Positions 1-6,043 of a stretch of DNA of 6,043 bases are shown piece by piece. The notes under the pieces are model-generated. The model worked only from the letters and a program-made list of their open reading frames with translations. It had not been told where the DNA came from and did no database searches. The position numbers and the translations under genes were made by a program. The first letter of the stretch is position 1; each line of letters begins with the position of its first letter. The stretch is from Salaquimonas sp. (GTDB lineage: Bacteria > Pseudomonadota > Alphaproteobacteria > Rhizobiales > Rhizobiaceae), in assembly GCA_024639745.1 (NCBI GenBank), contig JAHEHW010000122.1, positions 1 through 6,043 on the forward strand, given 5' to 3'.

Positions 1-737
1 ACTGGAGCCTGTGTTGTGTAGGGCACAACCTGGCCCGCTTTGTCGGCACCGTCCCGGAACAGTACGTTTCGATGTAGATTGTTGCCCTCGACGAGAGAGG
101 TCCACTCAAAGCCAATGATGGTGGTGAAGTTGCCAGGATCATTGAAGCGCTCAGCCGCATCAACGACCTTATCCCAGATCGATCTGTAGGTTCTTCCACC
201 CGGCGAATACTCGGCCAACATCTCAGGGTTCATATCACCCTGGGAAAAAGTGCCAATAAGGTTTAGCGCCGCTGCTACTGAAGCCTCTCCACCCGCCTGC
301 AGCCCCTCGTACCAGGACTTGGCCTGATCAAACTTGAGAATGTTCGGCTCACCCGCTTCAAGATCATTGAAGAAGCCCATTCCGTCCGAGTGATCGGCGA
401 TTACGAGCCAGTCGAGAGGGCGCCCCAGTTTCGCGGGCTGGCCGCTCGATGCCATGACTTCCTCGCCACGGGCGAAACGGTAAGCTTCATCAAGCTCAAG
501 ACGCGCGCCAAAAAGCCCCGCATCCATAGACAGTCCGGTATGAAGATGAGTATCGCCCCAATACACATTGCTTGGAAAGCGACGCTGCGCATAAGGCGAA
601 TAGGCCTTGCCGGGATAAAGGTCAGAAAGAGACTCTGCAGACGGCACGAACTGCGCAAACCCCGGATTTGAGCCAAAGAAGGAAACAGCCAGGGCGAGTG
701 TGAACGCCCCTATCGAATTTATTTTCACTCGTGCCAT
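1..737 (-). CDS. DUF3604 family exported protein (PHP-like, metal-dependent), 5' part only
   Basis: The reading frame opens at an ATG (735-737) and runs off the left edge, giving 245 visible residues; the C-terminus is outside the window. Residues 1-28 form a Sec-type signal peptide: basic MARVK, hydrophobic stretch, then a likely cut after NPGFA before Q29, so the protein probably works in the periplasm. The mature part carries the hallmarks I associate with DUF3604: YWGDTHLHTGLSMDAG (59-74), DWLVIADHSDGMG (109-121) and IGFEWTS (208-214). The D-x-H-x-H and ADHSD motifs resemble metal-binding segments of PHP/amidohydrolase-type phosphoesterases, so a metal-dependent hydrolase is a reasonable inference, but no substrate is known to me. 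AGGA lies 8 nt before the ATG and supports this start. The gene points away from its neighbours and is not in an operon with the L,D-transpeptidase (275 bp gap). I am sure of the family and unsure of the function. Confidence 0.85.
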   Translation of the reverse strand, partial: MARVKINSIGAFTLALAVSFFGSNPGFAQFVPSAESLSDLYPGKAYSPYAQRRFPSNVYWGDTHLHTGLSMDAGLFGARLELDEAYRFARGEEVMASSGQPAKLGRPLDWLVIADHSDGMGFFNDLEAGEPNILKFDQAKSWYEGLQAGGEASVAAALNLIGTFSQGDMNPEMLAEYSPGGRTYRSIWDKVVDAAERFNDPGNFTTIIGFEWTSLVEGNNLHRNVLFRDGADKAGQVVPYTTQAP

Positions 738-745
738 CGCTTCTT

Positions 746-749
746 TCCT
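746..749 (-). promoter_or_regulatory. Shine-Dalgarno site of the DUF3604 gene
   Basis: The minus strand reads TAGGAAAGAAGCG directly before the ATG. AGGA sits 8 nt from the start codon, a normal spacing, and the next codons begin a clear signal peptide, so this site fixes the start. Confidence 0.65.
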
Positions 750-753
750 ACCT

Positions 754-771
754 ATTTTCAGATCTGAAAAT
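754..771. promoter_or_regulatory. 18-bp perfect palindrome, candidate operator of the DUF3604 gene
   Basis: ATTTTCAGATCTGAAAAT is a perfect 18-bp inverted repeat with no spacer. It lies in an AT-rich stretch and ends 17 bp upstream of the DUF3604 start codon, just before the ribosome-binding site. The position fits a repressor site overlapping the transcription start or 5' leader. The binding protein is unknown; I do not recognise the motif as belonging to a named regulator. A short RNA hairpin in the leader is an alternative, though the lack of a loop makes a DNA operator more likely. Confidence 0.5.
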
Positions 772-1012
772 TAATGAAGAAAACTTTCGCATAATGACAG
801 GGAATTGAAAAGGTTTGATCGCTGCAGAACTTTGCTCGCACTCTTCCGTGCAGCCTGCTGCGATTGAATTTGTCGCAGAATCAATATTCTACGAAGAATT
901 TAGTGTGAGTGTGGTGCAAACCCACAAGGCCGCCTCACTCATCCCGCCGCCAATTGCCCATAAAAGGTGCGGGACTGGATGTGTCTCTCGAACAGATTTC
1001 CGAGTTCTAAAC

Positions 1013-1705
1013 CTACGTTGCGGCGGGCATGACGAGAATTGGTGCGCCAGCGTTTACGCGTTCGTAGAGGTCGATCACATCCTGCTGCATCATGCGTACA
1101 CAACCGCTTGAAACAGCATTTCCAATTGTCCAGTATTCAGGCGTGCCGTGAATTCGGTAAAGAGTGTCCTCGCCGTCCTGGAAAATGTAGAGTGCGCGAG
1201 CTCCCAGAGGATTTTCCGGCCCCGGCGGCATGCCGCCATTATCCGCGCTGTATTTTTCGAGATCCGGTTGTCGCGCGATCATCTCCTCAGGTGGCGTCCA
1301 TGTCGGCCATTTCTGCTTCCATCCGACTTCCGCCCGGCCCGACCAGCCAAATCCTGCGCGACCAAGCCCGACACCATATCGCATGGCGGTGTCTCGACCC
1401 TCGATCAGGTAAAGGTGAAAATTTGCCGTATCGACGATGATTGAACCAACCGGTTCTCGCGAGCGATAACGTACGCGTTGCCGATAGAATTGGTTTGGCA
1501 CCCGACTCAAATCGACCGCGCCGATCGGATAGGGCTCGCTGGTGATTGGGCCGTAAAGTTGCCCATAGCGGTCATCGAGATTCGACTCGAGCGGCTCCTG
1601 AAAGGTGGGGCGCTCATCCCTGAAGCGCTCCGACGCGCAGGCGTATAGTGGACTGGTCAAGCCCACCGCACAAATGCCGTTGAGAAAATTTCGCCGGGTG
1701 ACCAC
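1013..1705 (-). CDS. L,D-transpeptidase (YkuD domain), Tat-exported probable lipoprotein
   Basis: This 230-residue protein should form 3-3 cross-links in peptidoglycan, or attach a partner to it, outside the inner membrane. The YkuD catalytic domain spans about residues 87-227. It starts at GSIIVDTANFHLYLIEG, contains NPLGARALY (165-173), and ends in the signature HGTPEYWTIGNAVSSGCVRM (186-205), with His186 and the nucleophile Cys202. The N-terminus has a twin-arginine motif (TRRNFL, 3-8), a hydrophobic stretch and a lipobox-like L-Y-A-C with Cys23, so it may be a Tat-exported lipoprotein; Tyr at -2 makes the lipidation less certain. The start is GTG (1703-1705); a TGA lies in frame 24 bp upstream (1727-1729) with no better start between. 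No strong Shine-Dalgarno is visible. Active-site residues appear intact. It is divergent from the lytic transglycosylase at 1923, another wall enzyme. The physiological acceptor (wall, Braun-type lipoprotein or outer-membrane protein) cannot be told from sequence. Confidence 0.9.
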   Translation of the reverse strand: MVTRRNFLNGICAVGLTSPLYACASERFRDERPTFQEPLESNLDDRYGQLYGPITSEPYPIGAVDLSRVPNQFYRQRVRYRSREPVGSIIVDTANFHLYLIEGRDTAMRYGVGLGRAGFGWSGRAEVGWKQKWPTWTPPEEMIARQPDLEKYSADNGGMPPGPENPLGARALYIFQDGEDTLYRIHGTPEYWTIGNAVSSGCVRMMQQDVIDLYERVNAGAPILVMPAAT

Positions 1706-1779
1706 TGGAATTCGCTTTCGTCTATTTCATTACACGCCGCGGGCAACGCATGAGGCGCTTAATTGTTTCTTGTTTGCGA

Positions 1780-1785
1780 ATTATA
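1780..1785 (-). promoter_or_regulatory. Candidate -10 box for the L,D-transpeptidase gene
   Basis: The minus strand reads TATAAT, a perfect sigma-70 -10 match, about 75 bp upstream of the GTG start. No good -35 hexamer lies 16-18 bp further up (the sequence there is around CTCAAT), so it would have to be an activated or -10-driven promoter. The segment is also nearly self-complementary and could be read in either direction. Confidence 0.3.
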
Positions 1786-1866
1786 AGGTTCGATTGGGCG
1801 CTATTGAGGCGGCGCCGGGGCGTTAGTTTCCAGCTATCAGGCGACCGGGCATGGGTAGATCAACGG

Positions 1867-1896
1867 TTGACGCGAAGTGCCAGGGCCTTCAAATAT
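1867..1896 (+). promoter_or_regulatory. Candidate promoter of the lytic transglycosylase gene
   Basis: TTGACG (1867-1872) is a 5/6 match to the -35 consensus, followed after 18 bp by AAATAT (1891-1896), a weak -10. A start near 1903 would give a leader of about 20 nt carrying the GGAG site. If real, it rules out translation from the upstream ATG at 1851. The call rests on hexamer matching only. Confidence 0.3.
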
Positions 1897-1910
1897 CGAA
1901 CATCATATCG

Positions 1911-1914
1911 GGAG
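1911..1914 (+). promoter_or_regulatory. Shine-Dalgarno site that selects the ATG at 1923
   Basis: GGAG, within CGGGAGAAA, stands 8 nt before the ATG at 1923. It decides between this start and the in-frame ATG at 1851, which has no comparable site and would bury the signal peptide behind 24 extra residues. Confidence 0.75.
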
Positions 1915-1922
1915 AAATAATT

Positions 1923-3128
1923 ATGCGCCTTCTGACCACCGCATGTCGGCCATTTGTAATCACCGCTGTCGCTTTTTTGAACTTGTTTTTGAATCAGGCA
2001 ATGGCTTCGGCGGTTGAGTGCGGTGGCGATTTCGGCAACTTCCTTTCTAAAGTGAGGGCAGAGGCGCGTTCACGCGGCTTATCGCAACAGGCAATTGACC
2101 GAACGCTTGCCAATGCCCGAATCGACAGGAAGGTGTTGTCGCGGGACCGTGCGCAGGGTGTTTTCAAACTGACTTTCCTTGAGTTTTCGCAACGTGCGAT
2201 CAGCAGCTACCGTTTGAAAAACGGGAGGGCCAATATAGAGAAATACGCTTCCGTTTTTCGCAGAGCGGAGCAGGAATTCGGGGTGCCGGCTCCCGTGATT
2301 GCTGCATTCTGGGCGCTGGAGACGGACTTCGGCGCGGTTCAGGGCGATTTCAATACGATCAATGCGATCGCGACCCTTTCGCACGACTGCCGCCGTCCGG
2401 AGCTTTTTCAGCCTCATCTGTTTGCTGCAATACGGATGGTCGAGCATGGAGACCTTGATCCCGCGCGCACCACGGGTGCCTGGGCAGGTGAAATCGGTCA
2501 GGTGCAGATGCTTCCGGAAGACATAATTGAATTTGGGGTCGATGGGGATGGTGACGGTCATGTTCGGCTAAAGCAGAGCGCCCCGGACGCGATCATGACG
2601 GCTGCGCGTTTCATTCAGCATCTTGGCTGGCGTCGTGACGAACCCTGGATGCAAGAGGTTGACGTGCCCGGTCAATTCCACTGGGCGGAAGCGGGCCTTC
2701 ACCAACGCCTTCCCGTATCGAGATGGCAAAGCCTGGGCGTGCGCGCCAGGTCCGGCAATCTTCCGGCTGGCAGCCTGCAGGCCTCACTCGTCCTTCCGCA
2801 GGGACGCAATGGGCCAGCTTTCCTGTTGTTCGAGAATTTTGATATTTATCTCGAATGGAACCAGTCGCTCGTATACACGCTAACGGCATCCTACCTGGCG
2901 ACAAGGCTCGCCGGAGCACCACGATATGATGCGGGCAATCCCGAACCTGGTCTTTCAGATGCGCAAATGGAAAGTCTGCAACGGACGCTCCAGTCACGCG
3001 GTTACGATGTCGGCGGCGTTGATGGTATTCTGGGCGCAAAGACGCGAGACGCGGTGAGAACAGAGCAGTCGCGATTGGGGCTGCCGGCCGACGGTTGGCC
3101 AACTCCGAAGCTGCTGAACGCATTGTAG
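1923..3128 (+). CDS. Lytic murein transglycosylase, MltB-like, with C-terminal peptidoglycan-binding domain
   Basis: The 401-residue product should cleave the MurNAc-GlcNAc bond of peptidoglycan in the periplasm, leaving 1,6-anhydroMurNAc ends. Residues 1-29 form a signal peptide (MRLLTTACRP, hydrophobic core, cut near AMASA); I see no lipobox, so it is probably soluble, unlike E. coli MltB. The catalytic domain (about 35-330) contains WALETDFGA (130-138) with catalytic Glu133 and the AGEIGQVQMLP segment (188-198), equivalent to the G-x-x-G-Q-x-Q-F-M-P block of the family. An EF-hand-like loop with Asp207, Asp209, Asp211 and Gly212 matches the calcium site known in the E. coli Slt35 fragment. 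Residues 344-401 (SDAQMESLQRTLQSRGYD, then VDGILGAKTRDAV) are a PG_binding_1 domain for holding the wall. The longer frame from 1851 is rejected in favour of 1923. It is divergent from the L,D-transpeptidase and convergent with the LysR gene. Confidence 0.9.
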   Translation: MRLLTTACRPFVITAVAFLNLFLNQAMASAVECGGDFGNFLSKVRAEARSRGLSQQAIDRTLANARIDRKVLSRDRAQGVFKLTFLEFSQRAISSYRLKNGRANIEKYASVFRRAEQEFGVPAPVIAAFWALETDFGAVQGDFNTINAIATLSHDCRRPELFQPHLFAAIRMVEHGDLDPARTTGAWAGEIGQVQMLPEDIIEFGVDGDGDGHVRLKQSAPDAIMTAARFIQHLGWRRDEPWMQEVDVPGQFHWAEAGLHQRLPVSRWQSLGVRARSGNLPAGSLQASLVLPQGRNGPAFLLFENFDIYLEWNQSLVYTLTASYLATRLAGAPRYDAGNPEPGLSDAQMESLQRTLQSRGYDVGGVDGILGAKTRDAVRTEQSRLGLPADGWPTPKLLNAL

Positions 3129-3152
3129 CGATTGGGCGAGTATGAAGAAGCG

Positions 3153-4091
3153 TTAGGCGGTTTCGCTTATTTGTTGCTCTACGGTCACGCGATTGTTCTG
3201 CGGTAGTCTTACCTGATCGAAAATCCAATTCCTGAAGGCTGCGATCTTGGGCCGATTGGCTTCGCTATCCGGATAGGTAAGGGAATAGACGATCGTTCCT
3301 CTGGTTTCGATGTCAAAGAGCTGGATCAATTCTCCGGATGCCAGTTCTTTTTCGATCAACGCGCCGTAGCCAAGTACAACGCCCTGTCCTGCTTTTGCGG
3401 CGCGTAGCGTCAACTCACAATGCGGCAGTACTGGCCCAGCAACTTTTCCGGGTAGCTTGCCTTCCGCTGCCTCGAACCATTCTTGCCAGGAATCCCCGTA
3501 TTCGTCTTTCAATAAAGTCTGCCCAAGAAGGTCCGAAGGCTTTGTGAATTCACCATTTTTCTCGATCAATGTCGGACTGCAAACGGGGAAACGTGTTGTC
3601 GTCAGGAACGGCTCGACACGATAGCCGTCGGTGGGTTCGGATCCATATTGAATCAGAATGTCGATCCCACTATCCGGAAAAGCGAGTGGTTGGTCTATCG
3701 GTACTATTTCGAGCGAGATCTCGGGATAAATATTGTAGAAATCGCCCATACGGGGCAGGAACCACCGGCTCGTGAAGGCGGGGGTAGCGCCGATCAAGAG
3801 TGGCCCGGAAAGACTTTCGCCGCGGGTGCGGTGGGTCGCGGCGGAAAGATGATCGAGCACCTCCGTGATTTCACTGTAATAATCTTTTCCCTGACTGGTC
3901 AGCCGTATCGCCGATTTTTCCTTGTCACGGTCGAACAGGCTGGTATCCAGAAATTCCTCCAGCTGCTTCACTTGGTGACTGATTGCCGACTGTGTTCGGT
4001 GCAATTCTTCGGCCGCATGCTTGAAGCTACCCAGCCTGGCAGCGGACTCAAATGCTTTCAGCGCGGCAAAGGGCGGTAACAGCCGCTTCAC
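3153..4091 (-). CDS. LysR-family transcriptional regulator, GcvA-like
   Basis: This is a full-length 312-residue LysR regulator. The N-terminal winged helix-turn-helix covers about residues 5-64: LPPFAALKAFESAARLGSF is typical of the GcvA-like subgroup, followed by the recognition region RTQSAISHQVKQLEE (32-46) and SLFDRD (51-56). The effector-binding domain runs from about 95 (SGPLLIGATPAFTSRWFLPRM) to near 295 and is a type-2 periplasmic-binding fold by family. The effector cannot be read from sequence; membership in the GcvA-like group does not imply control of glycine cleavage. The start is GTG (4089-4091), which places the family's usual N-terminus correctly; the upstream GGA is close and weak. 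The gene is divergent from the photolyase, the classical arrangement for a LysR protein and its target, so it may control the photolyase and itself. Its 3' end faces the transglycosylase across 24 bp with no clear terminator. Confidence 0.92.
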   Translation of the reverse strand: MKRLLPPFAALKAFESAARLGSFKHAAEELHRTQSAISHQVKQLEEFLDTSLFDRDKEKSAIRLTSQGKDYYSEITEVLDHLSAATHRTRGESLSGPLLIGATPAFTSRWFLPRMGDFYNIYPEISLEIVPIDQPLAFPDSGIDILIQYGSEPTDGYRVEPFLTTTRFPVCSPTLIEKNGEFTKPSDLLGQTLLKDEYGDSWQEWFEAAEGKLPGKVAGPVLPHCELTLRAAKAGQGVVLGYGALIEKELASGELIQLFDIETRGTIVYSLTYPDSEANRPKIAAFRNWIFDQVRLPQNNRVTVEQQISETA

Positions 4092-4253: not shown

Positions 4254-5489
4254 ATGAGCCTCCAGCAATCTTCGAAACTTCAGCAGGCGTCAGTTTTTCA
4301 GTCGCCGACAAGGAGGGCCGGCCTTAATCAACTTGAGGCATTCCTTCCAAATTCGGGACTCCATTATGCCAGTTGGCGCAATAGCGATCTCGGGCCTGAT
4401 GACCGCTCCAATGTCTCGGTTCTCTCGCCATGGCTTCGACATCGCCTTGTCACAGAAACAGAGGCGGTCAAGCGCTCGCTTGAGGAGCAGTCATTCGACG
4501 CTGCTGAAAAATTCGTCCAAGAAGTCTTCTGGAGAGCCTATTTCAAGGGTTGGCTTGAGCAACATCCAAGCGTCTGGACAAACTACAAGCAACAAACTTC
4601 TCTGCTTGATAACTTCCTCGCAGAAGACCAAGCACTAAGATGTCGTTATGAGACGGCATTGGAGGGTCGAACGGGGATCGATTGTTTCGATCATTGGGCG
4701 ATGGAGCTCGTAGAGACGGGCTATCTCCATAACCATGCAAGGATGTGGTTCGCCAGTATCTGGGTTTTTACTCTGAAACTGCCCTGGGAACTCGGTGCCG
4801 ATTTCTTTCTTCGCCATCTGATGGATGGTGACCCGGCTTCGAATACTCTTTCCTGGCGCTGGGTTGCAGGTCTTCACACAAAGGGAAAGACCTATCTTGC
4901 CCGCTCCTCCAATATCGAGAAATTCACCAATGGTCGCTTCAAGCCGGTCGGGCAGTTGAGTGCTAAAGCGGAACCTGTGCATGAAAGCGCCGAGCACTCG
5001 CTTGAGCCGCTGGAATTGCCAGAGCCCGAACTGTTCGGGCGGATCGGGCTTCTGTTGACCGGGGAAGATTGCTTTCCGGAACAGCTTTTTCCCGAGTTGG
5101 AGCCAGTATCGATATTTGCCCTGACAGTTGATATTCGCGGTGATCGCGCGACAGGTTCCTGTGCTGAAACGTTCACAAAAGGAGCGCTGTCGGATGCAGT
5201 CAAACGCAGTGCATCGCATTTTTCGCAGGATGTCGTCGAGGGCAGCGATACCGAAACGCTCTGCGAGTGGGCCAGAGACCTGGGGCTGGACACCATCGTG
5301 ACGGCGTATGTGCCGATCGGCCCGGTTGGTGATCGACTAGAGGCTGCACAAGCCAGTCTCGTAGAAAGTGGGATCTCGATCGCAAAGCGTATTCGCGATC
5401 ATGACCGCGTGTCGTGGCCGCATGCGACCAAGGGCTATTTCAAACTGAAAAAGCAGCTCCCAGATATTCTTCAGGAACTTGGAATCTAG
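4254..5489 (+). CDS. Photolyase with inverted domain order (NewPHL-type), FAD domain N-terminal
   Basis: The 411-residue protein carries the photolyase/cryptochrome FAD-binding domain at its N-terminus (about 20-235) instead of its C-terminus. Diagnostic blocks are SNVSVLSPWLRHRLVTE (52-68), EKFVQEVFWRAYFKGWLE (85-102), GYLHNHARMWFASIW (156-170) and DGDPASNTLSWRWVAG (191-206). Asn197 aligns with the residue facing flavin N5 in E. coli photolyase (Asn378). Trp201 and Trp178 align with its electron-transfer Trp382 and Trp359; I cannot place a Trp306 equivalent. After a Glu/Pro-rich linker (about 236-260), residues 262-411 resemble a Rossmann-like domain; RDLGLDTIVTAYVPIGPVGD and the ESGISI and DHDRV segments recall the end of the normal N-terminal antenna domain. 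This order matches the NewPHL class, reported as light-dependent repair enzymes for pyrimidine dimers in single-stranded DNA. The ATG at 4254 is preferred over an in-frame TTG at 4143; the ribosome-binding site is weak. It is divergent from the LysR gene and 7 bp tail-to-tail with the renalase-like gene. Confidence 0.88.
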   Translation: MSLQQSSKLQQASVFQSPTRRAGLNQLEAFLPNSGLHYASWRNSDLGPDDRSNVSVLSPWLRHRLVTETEAVKRSLEEQSFDAAEKFVQEVFWRAYFKGWLEQHPSVWTNYKQQTSLLDNFLAEDQALRCRYETALEGRTGIDCFDHWAMELVETGYLHNHARMWFASIWVFTLKLPWELGADFFLRHLMDGDPASNTLSWRWVAGLHTKGKTYLARSSNIEKFTNGRFKPVGQLSAKAEPVHESAEHSLEPLELPEPELFGRIGLLLTGEDCFPEQLFPELEPVSIFALTVDIRGDRATGSCAETFTKGALSDAVKRSASHFSQDVVEGSDTETLCEWARDLGLDTIVTAYVPIGPVGDRLEAAQASLVESGISIAKRIRDHDRVSWPHATKGYFKLKKQLPDILQELGI

Positions 5490-5496
5490 CCCGTCC

Positions 5497-6043
5497 TCAA
5501 GCAAGAACTTCACCAATGGCATGAGCCAATTCGTGCCCGCTGGTAAATGCCGCTTCAACACGGCCGCCTATACACCAATCACCACATGCGGCTATCTGCA
5601 GATTTTCATCCAGGAGGAAGTTCTCTCCTGCCGGCACCGAGACATTTGCATAGCGCCACCGGTGTACTGTCGCGTAGCTTGGCTTGGGCAACTTCATTAC
5701 CAAAATCCCGTGAATCGCTGATTTAAGGTCTTTCAACACCTCTTGAGGATCGCGCTCCAGATTTTGGGCGCTCCATTCGTTCGAGGCATGGACGGTCAAA
5801 CAGGTTGCTTTCGCCCTGTCTGGCTTCGACTGATTCGCGGCTATCCAGCATAGTTGCCGGTGCTCGACCAATGCAGCGTCGAAGGGCAAGCCAACTTGCC
5901 TTTCGAACCCCAGCATCATCGTGAAGCTCGGTATCAATTGGGCCGTCTGGACGAGTTCGATCCCGGAAAACCGATCCGGCAGCAGATTGGCCGTTTGCGG
6001 CGCAGGCGCGGTCAGGACGACCCAGTCGAATGGTCCGTGGGTT
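5497..6043 (-). CDS. Renalase-like NAD(P)/FAD-dependent oxidoreductase, C-terminal half
   Basis: The frame is open to the right edge and ends at TGA (5497-5499); 181 residues are visible, roughly the C-terminal half of a family of about 330 residues. The N-terminal FAD-binding GxGxxG segment lies outside the window. Visible blocks match bacterial renalase (COG3380): HGPFDWVVLTAPAPQTANLL near visible residues 2-21, WIAANQSKPDR (66-76), HASNEWSAQNL (85-95), HRWRYA (127-132) and CGDWCIGGRVEAAFTSG (153-169), the last covering the flavin-contacting end of the fold. In Pseudomonas, characterised bacterial renalase oxidises the wrongly reduced 2- and 6-dihydro isomers of NAD(P)H to NAD(P)+, passing electrons to oxygen. 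The same reaction here is inferred from family. A TTG at 5935-5937 can look like a start but the homology continues upstream of it, so it is an internal Leu. The gene is convergent with the photolyase, and the 7-bp gap leaves no room for separate terminators. Confidence 0.85.
   Translation of the reverse strand, partial: THGPFDWVVLTAPAPQTANLLPDRFSGIELVQTAQLIPSFTMMLGFERQVGLPFDAALVEHRQLCWIAANQSKPDRAKATCLTVHASNEWSAQNLERDPQEVLKDLKSAIHGILVMKLPKPSYATVHRWRYANVSVPAGENFLLDENLQIAACGDWCIGGRVEAAFTSGHELAHAIGEVLA

Follow-up and report, generated by a model that had tools for sequence, protein, structure and literature searches.

The window analysed here is the entire 6,043-base contig JAHEHW010000122.1 of a Salaquimonas sp. 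draft genome (GCA_024639745.1; 2.45 Mb in 493 contigs). Its plus strand carries a gene for a putative photolyase of the NewPHL class at 4254..5489, which runs from ATG to stop as a single uninterrupted open reading frame (ORF) of 411 residues. Translation could also begin further upstream, at a TTG (4143); homologue P0001, which is 92% identical, is also 411 residues long and begins with MSLQQ, favours the ATG at 4254. After a gap of 7 bases, the gene for an amine-oxidase-type flavoprotein, recognized from its ORF and a domain search, converges on it from the minus strand (5497..6042; 3' part, cut by the contig end). Upstream, the gene for a LysR-type regulator, GcvA-like at a score under the NCBIfam cut-off, diverges from it (3153..4091, minus strand). 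A promoter scan of the window gave no promoter-like and one terminator-like site, with no excess over shuffled sequences, and Rfam and tRNA scans of the window gave no match.

An earlier note on this DNA, made from the sequence alone, had described a swapped domain order within one frame, and this was borne out, as FAD_binding_7 is followed in the ORF by an alpha/beta domain (all protein features on the plus strand). The flavin adenine dinucleotide (FAD) or catalytic domain spans residues ~14–247 (4293..4994) according to Pfam, an AlphaFold2 model and a fold search in which model residues ~8–247 matched solved photolyases, and its FAD_binding_7 core lies at residues 87–223 (4512..4922; Pfam, E 6.4e-23). 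That is, an FAD domain is present, with limits other than the residues 52–206 first given. The final third of FAD_binding_7 (profile positions 135–203) has no counterpart in the window protein. The C-terminal alpha/beta domain, the "Z-domain", covers residues 264–411 (5043..5486) with a predicted antenna-domain fold; strands and helices extend over residues 264–408 of the model, and an end-domain profile built from 64 rows matched at 5016..5486. The AlphaFold2 model, a check that had been proposed, was confident and supports both domains, and its predicted template modelling score (pTM) of 0.92 suggests that the domain arrangement is confidently predicted. We aligned 54 NewPHL rows, comprising the window protein, 38 of 120 listed proteins and 15 of 80 genome loci. 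All 54 contained FAD_binding_7 and had 206–242 residues between the W-x-W motif of this domain and the protein end; therefore, the FAD-first order is not a local artefact such as two fused reads, as the note had argued. In the same alignment, W388, P389 and G394 were invariant within the end-domain signature WPHATKGYF (residues 388–396; 5415..5441). Unlike class I photolyases and CRY-DASH, the window protein has no antenna domain ahead of its FAD domain, and it scored 66.1 bits against the NCBIfam crypto_DASH model (cut-off 317.05).

We compared 22 positions with E. coli photolyase over the 54 rows, together with a sample of 32 rows from the reverse type, a second FAD-first family to which a Deinococcus plasmid match had pointed. 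Seventeen positions, covering flavin, lesion and electron path, were identical to E. coli in 54/54 NewPHL rows. Among them are W201 (4854..4856) and W178 (4785..4787), the equivalents of W382 and W359, which we take to be the tryptophan adjoining the flavin and the middle electron-transfer tryptophan, respectively, and N197 (4842..4844), the equivalent of N378, which presumably faces flavin N5. E90 and W93 (4521..4532), N160 and M164 (4731..4745) and W203 (4860..4862) correspond to E274, W277, N341, M345 and W384, which we assume to line the pocket for the cyclobutane pyrimidine dimer (CPD). H161, between N160 and M164, stands in place of R342, likewise in every row. In the column of the distal tryptophan, W306, the window protein has E124 and none of the 54 rows has tryptophan; that is, the dyad W201 and W178 is kept and the third tryptophan is absent. 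The iron–sulphur (Fe-S) motif CxxC..C behind the FAD domain was found in 118 of 121 reverse-type proteins and in none of 319 NewPHL-type tails. A tryptophan dyad is also reported for the NewPHL of Dinoroseobacter shibae; the published features of the class were taken from passages of PMC9426592, PMC13274461 and PMC8948257.

A quick maximum-likelihood tree was built from 144 FAD domains: 85 NewPHL (with 79 of the 80 genome loci, L050 being left out as a 15-residue piece), 45 sampled reverse-type and 14 classical (from 22 loci, of which eight on the reverse strand were skipped). The 85 NewPHL rows, including the window protein, fell on one side of a branch with support 98; the reverse-type rows grouped together with support 92 and the classical rows with support 98, and NewPHL and reverse-type rows were joined with support 98. 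The window protein paired with P0001 (support 100), and the rows around it are alphaproteobacterial with some from Gammaproteobacteria. The tree is limited by its unknown root and by long branches, those of two classical rows and of Persicobacter, which may attract falsely; it does not give the older domain order. The NewPHL group includes Roseobacteraceae and Methylobacterium rows as stand-ins for the characterized proteins. Because the FAD-first order, the conserved residues, the tryptophan dyad, the absence of Fe-S cysteines and the tree placement agree, the window protein is, as judged from architecture, residues and phylogeny, an ordinary NewPHL. The class named in the earlier note, one already known, was thus the right one, and the tree, in which stand-ins represent the characterized members, does not give the placement outside NewPHL that the note had named as refuting.

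We hold, with a probability of roughly 0.87, that this gene encodes a NewPHL-type protein that opens with the FAD domain, ends in a domain of predicted antenna fold and likely uses light to split CPDs in single-stranded DNA. Its likely function is that of a CPD photolyase, with the preference for single strands taken from the literature. As the conserved residues suggest, Y38, S55, L57, S58, R94, R163, D191, D193 and N197 would bind FAD, and light would reduce it via a two-tryptophan wire of W201 and W178. Once reduced and excited, the flavin would pass an electron to a dimer that is bound by E90, W93, N160, M164 and W203. The role of the C-terminal domain would be to close off the flavin site and not to harvest light, and it may lack an antenna pigment; in the NewPHL abstract of Emmerich et al. 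2020, this domain is reported to seal the flavin site. Several points weigh against this assignment. At five of the 22 positions the E. coli residue is not kept, namely T234 (V or I), R236 (variable), W271 (F or Y), W306 and R342 (H). The characterized NewPHL proteins (D. shibae A8LJA9 and M. mesophilicum M7YZC8) are absent from the tree, the host genome is just 77% complete and a full-length copy of the gene occurs in none of six congeners. The window gene is one more NewPHL, and its significance lies in the class.

The nature of the end domain bears on that class as a whole. Folded alone, the domain gave photolyase antenna domains as its best fold matches (Z score 10.7), and its predicted structure has the fold of the PF00875 antenna along the whole domain. 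Direct sequence searches gave little. Pfam and NCBIfam returned nothing above cut-off on the window's end domain; PF00875 matched two of 64 end domains (the window and 63 of 80 genome loci) at all, with a best E of 0.048, and the window's was not among them. In the PDB, a sequence search with the single end domain found 0 matches and one with the profile found weak unrelated ones (best E 0.034). Thus, of the two hidden Markov model searches that had been suggested, the one for the FAD part succeeded and the PF00875 search of the end domain gave no match. We then compared profiles built from 42 antenna rows (29 of 30 PF00875 loci and 13 of 14 classical), 119 of 122 reverse-type domains and, as controls, 27 of 30 universal stress proteins (USPs) and 27 of 30 CTP-transferases, with 100 column shuffles for each comparison of the NewPHL end domain. 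The NewPHL end domain matched the reverse-type C-terminal domain at 94.3% (E 9.6e-8, 109 columns; score 55.6, shuffle maximum 20.3), and the reverse-type domain matched the classical antenna at 96.6% (E 6e-10, 134 columns). Against the merged reverse-type and antenna profile, the end domain reached 89.1% over 113 columns. The CTP-transferase control gave 0.5% with the end domain (score 16.9, shuffle maximum 17.7) and less than 1% with each of the other two, and the reversed end-domain profile gave no match.

The alternative that survives best is an independent gain, in which the C-terminal domain would be of Rossmann/USP type and unrelated to the antenna, and part of the same evidence speaks for it and against a displaced antenna. 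USPs nearly tied with antenna domains in the fold search (Z 10.0 vs 10.7). The direct profile comparison with the classical antenna was weak (7.5%, 80 columns; score 25.4, shuffle maximum 23.4) and lay below that with USPs (29.3%, 31 columns; score 29.3, shuffle maximum 16.3). Moreover, USPs matched the reverse-type domain at 82.7% (38 columns) and the antenna at 77.2% (90 columns); since the USP control is unclean for these other pairs, part of the profile signal reflects a shared superfamily, and USPs are probably distant relatives of all these domains. However, the USP match to the end domain spans just 31–33 columns, and among the best 50 fold rows USPs aligned over 104–136 residues, whereas most photolyase and cryptochrome rows aligned over at least 139 and reached the last helices (three covered 115–118). 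The bridge through the reverse type, in contrast, is long in both steps, and the tree places NewPHL and the reverse type side by side. We therefore regard an independent acquisition as unlikely. Because the direct sequence link is weak and below that of USPs, the case for a displaced antenna is built on the bridge group and the coverage of the fold matches; from profiles and predicted structure, the end domain is likely the usual light-harvesting antenna domain of photolyases, relocated to the opposite end of the chain. The "Rossmann-like region" noted at residues 262–411 is accordingly real as an alpha/beta domain, and that term understates what is best explained as a displaced antenna. The Z-domain is called "an atypical, short photolyase domain" in a passage of PMC9426592 (2022).

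A NewPHL-fold protein could also have become a cryptochrome-like light sensor and lost DNA repair. Cryptochromes share the fold, the tryptophan path is shortened and a LysR regulator gene diverges from the window gene. However, the lesion-pocket residues E90, W93, N160, M164 and W203 are kept in all 54 relatives, LysR is not adjacent at other NewPHL loci and another photolyase gene lies nearby in 23 of 80 loci, which makes this reading very improbable. Less credible still is that the protein belongs with the reverse-order photolyases of Fe-S type (Phr4/5/6 or SPL), with possible repair of (6-4) products: the domain order is common to both and the groups adjoin in the tree, but the CxxC..C motif is missing from every NewPHL-type tail and the window protein sits inside the NewPHL group with support 98. 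Gene decay or a misassembly, as a 6 kb contig of a draft bin with genes lacking close orthologues in six congeners might suggest, is scarcely conceivable given an intact frame, an equally long homologue with 92% identity in other records, conserved residues and a composition inside the range of the bin.

The last point rests on tetranucleotide correlations with the bin of 0.89–0.92 for the window, 0.74–0.94 for 16 of 20 bin contigs and 0.68–0.87 for 12 stretches of other genomes. The MltB, LysR and DUF3604 genes lie at window 1..4091. Among the six congeners, identity to the window's MltB was at most 35% over more than 100 residues and to its LysR at most 37% along its length, and relatives of its DUF3604 protein were found in none. 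Since the tetranucleotide values are in range and close orthologues are lacking in congeners, the contig fits its bin in composition, yet its genes look accessory. NewPHL was the sole PF03441 match in the window's genome and PF00875 had no match there, with room for a missed gene at 77% completeness; five of the six congeners have a conventional photolyase instead.

The second FAD-first family was followed further. Fused proteins of Deinococcus AJ005 and D. psychrotolerans have 456 and 457 residues, respectively. A search with the AJ005 protein found 1,749 proteins, with Cyanobium PCC 7001 and NIES-981 among the 120 listed, and PF00875 was given for two of these 120 (P0264 and P0343). On a plasmid of Deinococcus sp. 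QL22 (L115:2890-4181), an FAD half of 257 residues is followed by a 173-residue "hypothetical protein" whose gene overlaps the first by four bases; the latter matched PF00875 at E 2.3e-4, under the curated cut-off, and, when the two sequences were compared directly, the C-terminal domain of Cyanobium P0338 at E 2e-18. This split pair indicates that a homologue seemingly without an antenna may have it in the next gene. Xu et al. 2021 reportedly described a "short photolyase-like" (SPL) class, which the reverse-order Fe-S group possibly overlaps.

By the tree, the FAD-first photolyases sampled form one group, and they probably keep the antenna domain, which has moved to the opposite end or, on one Deinococcus plasmid, is encoded by the adjoining gene. 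We lean slightly towards the view that a single domain-order swap gave rise to every FAD-first photolyase, NewPHL and Phr4/5/6 and probably also SPL, with the Z-domain being the antenna at the C-terminus or sometimes a separate adjacent gene; the swap may have come about when two photolyase genes in tandem, an arrangement that is still common around NewPHL, lost their outer halves. If so, FAD-first proteins would be rearranged photolyases and not antenna-less ancestors. A displaced antenna would also weaken the argument reported in a passage of PMC9649867, though it would not fix the polarity of the change. Such kinship is already hinted at in print, because passages of PMC9426592 describe Phr7 as starting with an FAD domain and ending in a Z-domain and place it nearest Phr4 and Phr6, besides giving the Z-domain description above; they also report reverse-order Phr6 in Cyanobium PCC 7001 and NS01 and adjacent phr4/phr5 in marine Synechococcus. 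Among the titles and abstracts listed on photolyase circular permutation, antenna, Z-domain and D. shibae, none was found to state a displaced antenna or a single FAD-first lineage; the full texts of Emmerich 2020 and Xu 2021 may do so.

Two further architectures were seen around the reverse-order family. Four metagenomic proteins (P0280, P0282, P0283 and P0284) are reverse-order photolyases of the Deinococcus type to which a domain of the uracil-DNA glycosylase superfamily (PF03167) is added, C-terminally in P0282 (residues 543–697). A Persicobacter plasmid (L119:2917-5548) carries an unannotated FAD-first photolyase ORF of 391 residues with FAD_binding_7, overlapping a 507-residue ORF that by eye resembles a conventional-order photolyase.

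NewPHL relatives are numerous, contrary to the earlier statement that members are few: the protein search found at least 7,998 at E 1e-3, the weak end of which may include other photolyases, and GTDB species genomes held at least 591 loci, possibly with some reverse-type among them. The 79 tree loci include five from Actinomycetota, one from Verrucomicrobiota and one from Vulcanimicrobiota. Closer to the window, and counting its own genome each time, the end-domain profile matched eight of 115 genomes drawn across the class and a full-length match occurred in three of 41 nearby genomes (G000, G008 and G025). The best 60 of 71 PDB sequence matches to the whole protein contained no NewPHL structure, nor did 53 from a second search. 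A BFVD fold search with the whole model had ordinary viral photolyases as its top two rows and one row at E ≤0.001, and six pattern matches for NewPHL in viral contigs yielded none confirmed. The expectation that annotation would say only "FAD-binding domain-containing protein" held for six of eight full-length plasmid matches (of the others, one had no listed feature and one record no annotation), but JGI names many "deoxyribodipyrimidine photo-lyase".

Neighbourhoods were read up to 6 kb on each side of NewPHL at the 80 genome loci. The second photolyase gene close to NewPHL was conventional in 18 loci, DPRP-type in 14 and both in nine, as judged by similarity to one representative per kind and counted on related loci without a formal control. 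The loci with such clusters (all within L031–L110) are mostly from Alphaproteobacteria. Neighbour clustering also yielded shadow frames and blocks common to related Rhodobacterales; these were set aside. In a count of the same kind, again without a formal control, homologues of the amine-oxidase-type flavoprotein occurred in six of 86 NewPHL loci, five of them within 400 bases of NewPHL. LysR was rejected as a conserved partner (homologues in 3/86 loci, 2.2–3.4 kb off and none adjacent), as was MltB (0/86). An AarF/UbiB kinase gene lay near NewPHL in four of the 86 (L021, L022, L023 and L050), adjoining it in L021, L022 and L050, and a DUF3429 gene in four by BLAST (L023, L034, L047 and L054) and in L024 by annotation.

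Among known systems, the NewPHL proteins of D. shibae (A8LJA9) and M. mesophilicum (M7YZC8), known here by published description, and Prochlorococcus Phr7 share with the window protein an FAD domain first and a Z-domain last, as well as the tryptophan dyad, the CPD-pocket residues and the absence of Fe-S cysteines; no tested feature sets it apart from NewPHL. The reverse-order Fe-S type (Cyanobium Phr6, Synechococcus Phr4/Phr5 and the deinococcal proteins) also has the FAD domain first, a neighbouring place in the tree and a related C-terminal domain, but carries CxxC..C and has a C-terminal domain nearer to the antenna. Class I CPD photolyases (E. coli PhrB, 1dnp) and CRY-DASH (2j4d) share the FAD fold and most active-site residues, whereas their antenna comes first and they have a tryptophan triad. 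Finally, prokaryotic (6-4) photolyases, or FeS-BCP (PhrB, 4dja), begin with a DPRP-type domain and act on (6-4) lesions; they differ from the window protein in domain order. A gene of this type often neighbours NewPHL (14/80 loci).
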